IMG/VR virus record: IMGVR_UViG_3300024289_000027
Span: 1 to 64,000 of that record
Reading direction: 5' to 3' (one strand)
From: a virus
DNA length: 64,000 bases
Of the stretch, positions 8,169 through 8,846 are shown one piece after another. The notes beneath the pieces were generated by a model that ran no database searches, had not been told where the DNA came from, and saw nothing but the letters and a program-made list of their open reading frames with translations. Made by a program: the position numbers and the translations under genes. Position 1 is the first letter of the stretch. Each line of letters opens with the position of its first letter.

Positions 8169-8197
8169 TTGACTAGATATATTGTAGGTAGTATACT
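8169..8197 (+). promoter_or_regulatory. Strong sigma-70-type early promoter
   Basis: TTGACT (8169-8174) and TATACT (8192-8197) are exactly 17 bases apart, close to consensus. The predicted transcript start is near 8204, so the RNA would begin with the CGUUCAUCC segment and reach the ATG at 8216 after only about 12 bases. Confidence 0.85.
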
Positions 8198-8205
8198 GCA
8201 ATTAT

Positions 8206-8462
8206 CGTTCATCCTATGGCTAAAGCACTTTTGCTTTTAGCATGGGTTCCATTTCTTTCTTTTTCTACTTCACAACTAACTGCAACTGAATATGCAGTTA
8301 AACTTAGTTGTGATACTGTGTGGGAACTAATGGACATCGTTAAAAACGACGATGTAGTTAATCAAAGAACAGAAGACCGATTGCTATTAGAACTCCGAAA
8401 GGATTTTATTCAAAAGTGCTAAAATTAAATAGGACGGAAGTACGCCGACTCGGAACGGAATG
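8206..8462 (+). ncRNA. Putative split glutamine-riboswitch-like RNA enclosing a small gene
   Basis: The transcript starts with CGUUCAUCCUAU (8206-8217). After the 68-aa gene it continues with AUAGGACGGAAGUACGCC (8429-8446) and then GGAACGG. CGUUC and GACGGAAGUA match my memory of the glnA/Downstream-peptide (glutamine riboswitch) consensus. UCCUAU (8212-8217) can pair with AUAGGA (8429-8434), and CGUUC (8206-8210) with GAACG (8453-8457), giving P1 and P2 helices with the whole small gene in the P2 loop. The P2 pairing covers the AU of its start codon. Whether the long-range pairing forms is inference. Confidence 0.45.
8216..8422 (+). CDS. Small secreted protein, 68 aa
   Basis: An N-terminal hydrophobic segment (residues 3-19, ALLLLAWVPFLSFSTS) looks like a signal peptide. 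The mature part is helical and ends in cysteine, with another cysteine at about residue 32. The start codon lies only about 12 bases from the predicted transcript start, so translation may be nearly leaderless. The gene is bracketed by the two halves of a riboswitch-like sequence. No function known. Confidence 0.6.
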   Translation: MAKALLLLAWVPFLSFSTSQLTATEYAVKLSCDTVWELMDIVKNDDVVNQRTEDRLLLELRKDFIQKC

Positions 8463-8500
8463 CCTATGTTTTTCTATACCTATTGTGGAAAAAGAGTAGG

Positions 8501-8549
8501 TCGTTCATCCTACTAAGGGACGCAAAAGCCGACGGAAGGAACGCCACCT
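8501..8549 (+). ncRNA. Putative glutamine-riboswitch-like (Downstream-peptide type) element
   Basis: CGUUCAUCC (8502-8510) and GACGGAAGGAACG (8531-8543) give P1 (8502-8506 with 8539-8543), extended outwards by AGGU (8498-8501) with ACCU (8546-8549), and a short P2 (8508-8510 with 8518-8520). An alternative hairpin pairs GUAGG (8496-8500) with CCUAC (8509-8513) and excludes P1. Downstream-peptide RNAs are known upstream of short peptide genes in marine cyanobacteria and their phages, which is the context here. Glutamine binding is not shown. Confidence 0.55.
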
Positions 8550-8577
8550 AACCTTAAAAAGTAAAGGAGCAACCCTA

Positions 8578-8715
8578 ATGTCTAAAGTAGTTTATCGTGG
8601 TGTCGAGTATGATACCCAAAAACGTCTTGAGTATCAACAACAAATGATGCAACAACCTCAACAATACAACGAGACCTATCGTGGGGTTAAGTTTGTAAAG
8701 GAGGGACATAAATGA
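8578..8715 (+). CDS. Riboswitch-associated small protein with YRG motif, 45 aa
   Basis: This 45-residue peptide (MSKVVYRGVEYDTQKRL..., later ETYRGVKFV) has two YRGV motifs flanking a glutamine-rich middle. The motif recalls small cyanobacterial DUF4278-type proteins, some of which I associate with nitrogen control, but this is memory and not a search. AAGGAG (8564-8569) lies 8 bases before the ATG. The riboswitch-like element ends 28 bases upstream. It is coupled to the next gene by an ATGA overlap. Confidence 0.7.
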   Translation: MSKVVYRGVEYDTQKRLEYQQQMMQQPQQYNETYRGVKFVKEGHK

Positions 8716-8813
8716 TTAAAACTATTAATGTACTTCAATTGATTAAAGAACAAAAACAAAAAGAAGAACGTCGTCATCAAGCATCTCTTGCTACTTTGTT
8801 AGCAGCAAAATAA
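8712..8813 (+). CDS. Small hypothetical protein, 33 aa
   Basis: A 33-residue charged helix (MIKTINVLQLIKEQKQKEER...) overlapping the previous gene by four bases and followed at once by a terminator. The position makes it the last gene of the early mini-operon. No function recognised. Confidence 0.5.
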   Translation: MIKTINVLQLIKEQKQKEERRHQASLATLLAAK

Positions 8814-8816
8814 TAT

Positions 8817-8846
8817 GAAGGGGGACTTGACTTCCCCCCTTTTTTT
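8817..8846 (+). terminator. Rho-independent terminator
   Basis: A G-rich arm (8818-8824) pairs with a C-rich arm (8834-8841) and a run of T follows. It closes the unit that starts at the 8169 promoter. Confidence 0.9.

Follow-up and report, generated by a model that had tools for sequence, protein, structure and literature searches.

How can a complete protein-coding gene lie between two segments that resemble the halves of a glutamine riboswitch, and what would such an arrangement achieve? The question is raised by a 64,000-nt window (positions 1 to 64,000 of the virus record IMGVR_UViG_3300024289_000027). The initial annotation had placed CGTTCATCCTAT at 8206-8217 and ATAGGACGGAAGTACG at 8429-8444, on either side of an ORF at 8216-8422, and had proposed a glutamine riboswitch fold interrupted by the whole gene. 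The sequences and their positions are as it gave them, and the proposed fold is supported. Its version of helix P1 (8206-8210 with 8453-8457) and its end of the element at 8462 are replaced here. Comparative folding, the covariation of P3 and the long-range pair indicate that 8206-8210 pairs with 8539-8543, and 8453-8457 with 8502-8506. The stretch 8500-8547 belongs to the same RNA, and P1 closes around both halves.

All features discussed lie on the + strand. A sigma-70-like promoter (TTGACT-17-TATACT, 8169-8197) is predicted from the sequence; it is rated fair, and its position is conserved in relatives. The transcript is expected to begin at about 8204-8206, in agreement with the early transcript that had been predicted for this locus. 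Behind the ORF follow the Shine-Dalgarno sequence AAGGAG (8564-8569) of a 45-aa gene (8578-8715) that is DUF4278-like by a Pfam match below the cut-off, a 33-aa gene presumed to share the transcript (8712-8813), and a terminator-like hairpin at the presumed transcript end (8820-8838). In relatives (e.g., L283, L125 and L020) an inverted repeat upstream of the outer 5' half has the -10 box in its loop, and its arms vary between phages yet remain complementary. The mean arm is 5.98 bp at 122 aptamer promoters vs 3.74 bp at 23 similar promoters elsewhere; in the window the repeat is weak (8191-8198). It is possibly a phage-specific operator or a DNA hairpin.

Rfam found no match in the window at its thresholds. 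At a permissive threshold, the ordinary-looking stretch 8500-8547 scores 27.8 bits against the glutamine riboswitch model, so that aptamer sequences occur a second time, 44 nt behind the first set. On the basis of sequence comparison, we conclude that the two apparent aptamer "copies" are a single nested RNA, namely a glutamine-I-type aptamer with the whole 68-aa gene in its P2 loop. The nested element extends to about 8547, with the 5' and 3' aptamer parts ~330 nt apart.

Comparison with relatives shows the outer part to have the predicted structure of a glutamine-I-type aptamer, with P1, P2, loop E, P3 and a long-range pocket pair. In P1, CGUUC (8206-8210) pairs with GAACG (8539-8543). P2a joins UCCUAU (8212-8217), which contains the AU of the start codon, to AUAGGA (8429-8434), and its loop holds the embedded gene A (8216-8422, 68 aa), which has no Shine-Dalgarno sequence. 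Core I, GACGGAAGUA, follows at 8433-8442; its G8437 pairs over long range with the pocket base C8544 at the end of the P1 3' segment (8539-8544), and its AGUA (8439-8442) forms one strand of loop E, the other being GAA at 8535-8537. P3 pairs CGCCGACU (8443-8450) with AGCCGACG (8527-8534), with two A.C mismatches. The loop of P3 holds, according to the same comparison, a second, circularly permuted aptamer half with a P1' hairpin, P2 and long-range pair of its own. Here GAACG (8453-8457) pairs with CGUUC (8502-8506), and the next base, G8458, pairs with C8523; then come the P2b hairpin UCCU/GGGA (8508-8520), at the site of a second gene in many relatives, and core II, GACGCAAA (8519-8526). The loop of the inner hairpin is extended to 44 nt in the window (8458-8501), compared with 3-5 nt in nearly all relatives. 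The only other long spacer, in L148, has 21 nt and its own hairpin, ACCUA-CUUA-UAGGU.

IMG/VR contains 213 stretches related to the 68-aa protein, and the best 80 were fetched. Two of these gene A loci are cut by contig ends; in 76 of the other 78 the gene is still flanked by both halves, CGTTCATCCT immediately preceding the ATG and a 3' half AATAGGACG[GC]AAGTA...CGGAACGG lying behind it. The 3' half is absent from the remaining two; the 5' half is decaying in one (CGTTC to AGTTC, L046) and intact in the other (L027). In most relatives a second 5' half lies directly behind, with a small gene or a hairpin in its loop, and then comes a second 3' half GACGCAAANGCCGACTGAAGGAACG. The matches listed include 163 distinct viral arrays, which are a sample and not a total. 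Two genes are found in 57 of them, a hairpin followed by a gene in 56, a gene followed by a hairpin in 25, and two hairpins in 21; in 4 the first half is unseen, so the number with only the second gene lies between 56 and 60. L022 and its relatives carry a single canonical aptamer with a gene in P2 and a simple P3 hairpin.

Cultured carriers are Kyanoviridae and other T4-like cyanophages: Syn9, P-SSM4, P-HM2, P-RSM4, P-SSM2, P-TIM40 and S-TIM5, as well as Syn19, S-SSM7, S-CAM3, S-SZBM1, DSL-LC02, DSL-LC03 and S-SRM01. Their embedded genes are annotated as hypothetical proteins or are unannotated; in Syn9, gp196 and gp197 are both embedded. A short-pattern scan of cellular genomes gave no composite among the 119 stretches listed. 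In P-SSM4 (L416:976-1161) and P-TIM40 (L421:1903-2097), manA RNAs occur near the composite element.

The pairing of 8212-8217 with 8429-8434 (UCCUAU/AUAGGA), proposed from the window alone, is borne out by the relatives: the two strands change together between cassettes, and compensation conserves the stem across gene-bearing cassettes. Such compensatory changes in related cyanophages had been named in advance as the test of this helix. Variants include UCUAU/AUAGA, UCUUAUG/CAUAAGA, UCCAAUG/CAUUGGA and UCUCAUG/CAUGAGA, among others. The pooled mean stem of 70 distinct strand pairs is 5.41 bp vs 3.49 bp (sd 0.14, largest 4.04) in 5000 re-pairings. Within two-gene arrays, the P2 strands form 5.5 and 5.75 bp with their own partners and 3.3 and 2.8 bp with their neighbour's.

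P3 joins the segment after GTA of the first 3' half to the segment before GAA of the second. The window and S-SRM01 have the CGCCGACU/AGCCGACG version in common; others are AGCCGACN/N'GCCGACU, AGUCG/CGACU and, in P-RSM4, AUUCG/CGAAU. Across the 79 rows of the gene A tree, the last P3 pair is always T-A, G-C or A-T, and each side has changed 14 times. The long-range base pair in the glutamine pocket, known from crystallography of both classes (PMC6698751), corresponds here to the fifth base of GACGx with the base after GAACGy. A match requires that core I be combined with the second 3' end and core II with the first. The outer pair is G-C in 45 and C-G in 118 of the 163 arrays among the matches listed and is never broken; the inner pair is intact in 162 of these, the exception (L107) probably being a parsing error. 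About 5 changes of the outer pair fall on the gene A tree, and on its well-supported branches only 2 independent switches are certain.

These pairs bear directly on the reading of the locus as a tandem of independent glutamine aptamers, the first interrupted by the gene and closed by the P1 of the initial annotation, the second ordinary. Glutamine riboswitch tandems are common (PMC9481103), the P1 strands of each copy are complementary, and certain single halves score alone in Rfam. Against this, both copies lack a P3 and a loop E of their own, whereas true tandem pairs from the same scans retain theirs. The P3 strands covary between the copies, and the tandem pairing would break the pocket pair in both copies of 45 listed arrays (45 G.G and 45 C.C). 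We therefore regard independent tandem aptamers as contradicted by the long-range pair and the shared P3, and give this reading hardly any weight.

Folding calculations agree in part with the nested structure. Given 21 natural gene-free members and no structure, RNAalifold recovered both the outer P1 and the inner hairpin de novo. At minimum energy, the window RNA adopts a fold with the pairings 8206-8210/8539-8543 and 8453-8457/8502-8506 and without P2; enforcing all helices costs 9.6 kcal/mol relative to this fold, in energies that leave out ligand and tertiary contacts. The strands of P1 and P1' never vary and thus have no covariation of their own, so their pairing is inferred from the topology. 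Core II and the region ahead of the downstream Shine-Dalgarno sequence show covariation that is no more than suggestive (p=0.11). In oceanic relatives (e.g., L221:8378-8441), core II CUGAAG/CUAAAG can pair with CUUCAG/CUUUAG beside the Shine-Dalgarno sequence, in a manner that resembles P2 of glutamine-II; this pairing is possibly an expression platform.

With respect to class, the outer aptamer has these features of RF01739: P1 CGUUC/GAACG closing the junction (its partner assigned by topology and the adjacent long-range pair), a P2 helix starting UC/GA, loop E AGUA/GAA between P3 and P1 (8439-8442 and 8535-8537, as in the Rfam alignment of L221), and the ligand-pocket pair 8437 G:8544 C. Against a cut-off of 35 bits, the window piece scores 27.8 and the gene-free composite relative L221 43.6, where only contiguous sequence is scored. 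The Rfam model aligns the L221 composite as a single aptamer with 38 nt within P3. Among 14 isolate loci, a glutamine riboswitch is reported above threshold only in DSL-LC02 and P-SSM2.

The embedded genes are coding, with the fewest differences at second codon positions and the most at third. Proteins of both slots have a hydrophobic N terminus and two conserved cysteines. The 68-aa protein has no Pfam match and a weak PHROGs match, and its AlphaFold model (pLDDT 58.6) is too poor for a structure search. Relative to synonymous-codon shuffles, the embedded mRNAs show extra internal folding (z about -2.9 and -1.8); its reading as a compaction signal was rejected as not specific, since downstream genes give z -2.2 and pieces of long ORFs -0.9.

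The embedded starts differ from those downstream: an SD-like motif precedes 35 of 199 embedded vs 151 of 156 downstream genes. Of the 199 embedded genes, 197 have their ATG 9-12 nt downstream of the P1 start. That P2 overlaps the start codon, as had been suggested for the window, is supported by 104 of 131 distinct cases in which at least one base of the AUG is in the stem; in the other 27 the stem stops short of it. Most first genes end 8-12 nt ahead of core I, at its border or on its UAA, and most second genes on the UGA of core II. A stop codon within the core is common in relatives but not found for gene A of the window, which ends before the P2 3' strand, at 8422.

Together, we suggest that the locus encodes a composite glutamine riboswitch built around protein-coding genes, which would swap one set of small phage proteins for another according to nitrogen status; we put the probability of this reading at roughly 0.6. 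An early transcript would start at P1, so the embedded gene, with a leader of ~10 nt and no Shine-Dalgarno sequence, would be translated while the RNA is still being made. Once the RNA is complete and glutamine is high, P1, P2 and P3 would close. The closed P2 would bury the embedded AUG and stop initiation, and the bound fold would free the Shine-Dalgarno sequence of the DUF4278-like gene further downstream, in the manner of known glutamine ON switches. The ligand-bound fold and ribosomes would be mutually exclusive; where the stop codon lies in the core, terminating ribosomes would hold the aptamer open. More tentatively, and with the odds somewhat against it, the RNA might have two glutamine pockets, in head-to-head aptamers that share P3, and close the embedded starts while opening the downstream one, a metabolite-driven exchange of peptide sets on one mRNA.

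The embedded genes might instead be passengers in tolerant P2 loops, expressed regardless of a glutamine switch that serves the downstream gene only. P2 loops freely accept hairpins or genes, and some P2 stems end short of the AUG; the AUG is nevertheless held 9-12 nt from the P1 start, SD-like motifs are few, unlike at downstream genes, and P2 pairing is maintained across the start region. We consider passengers an unlikely but serious alternative. A fold insensitive to glutamine, which would protect mRNA ends or time translation as a fixed structure with ribosomes as the sole input, appears considerably less probable. The mRNA 5' end would indeed sit in P1, and the inner half lacks loop E, but all 163 listed arrays conserve the pocket bases, the long-range pair among them, and the type of the downstream gene fits known glutamine switches, which in cyanobacteria turn DUF4278 genes on (PMC6316151).

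If the composite riboswitch operates as proposed, it would control an enclosed gene from both sides, in the sense opposite to that of the gene behind it, and would tie small cyanophage proteins to the nitrogen state of the host in phages that can already be cultured. The RNA is also a naturally occurring example of a fused aptamer pair with circular permutation. Usual riboswitch searches presuppose a compact leader aptamer; because the aptamer is split by whole genes, Rfam finds no glutamine riboswitch here in most cultured phages examined, including Syn9, P-SSM4 and P-HM2. A literature search, made mostly outside subscription papers, found no description of a gene inside an aptamer loop or of aptamers sharing P3, nor a matching arrangement in work on cyanophage riboswitches and permuted riboswitches.

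Among known systems, the composite shares with glutamine-I (glnA RNA, RF01739) P1 CGUUC/GAACG, P2, the GACGGAAGUA/GAA loop E, P3, the long-range G-C pair and a DUF4278-like gene downstream; it differs in having whole genes in the P2 loop and a second, permuted half in P3. With glutamine-II (Downstream-peptide RNA, RF01704) it has in common GACGC and a C-G long-range pair, in core II and most core I sequences, and a small downstream peptide. The ligand site is reported to be near-identical in both classes (PMC6698751); Rfam scores stay under the RF01704 gathering cut-off of 33 bits (15.2 in the window, 26.8 in L221). Tandem glutamine riboswitches (PMC2864571, PMC9481103) likewise have two sets of conserved halves in series; such doublets are treated as complete, separate aptamers, whereas the sets of the composite share one P3 and one outer pocket. 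The tandem survey left out intervening ORFs and gaps >300 nt (PMC9481103), so gene-bearing forms would have been missed. Finally, group I introns with an ORF in a peripheral loop (PMC3984707) also carry a protein gene in a loop of a structured RNA. Unlike these, the composite involves neither ribozyme nor splicing, and its start codons, in many relatives its stop codons too, overlap the structured RNA.
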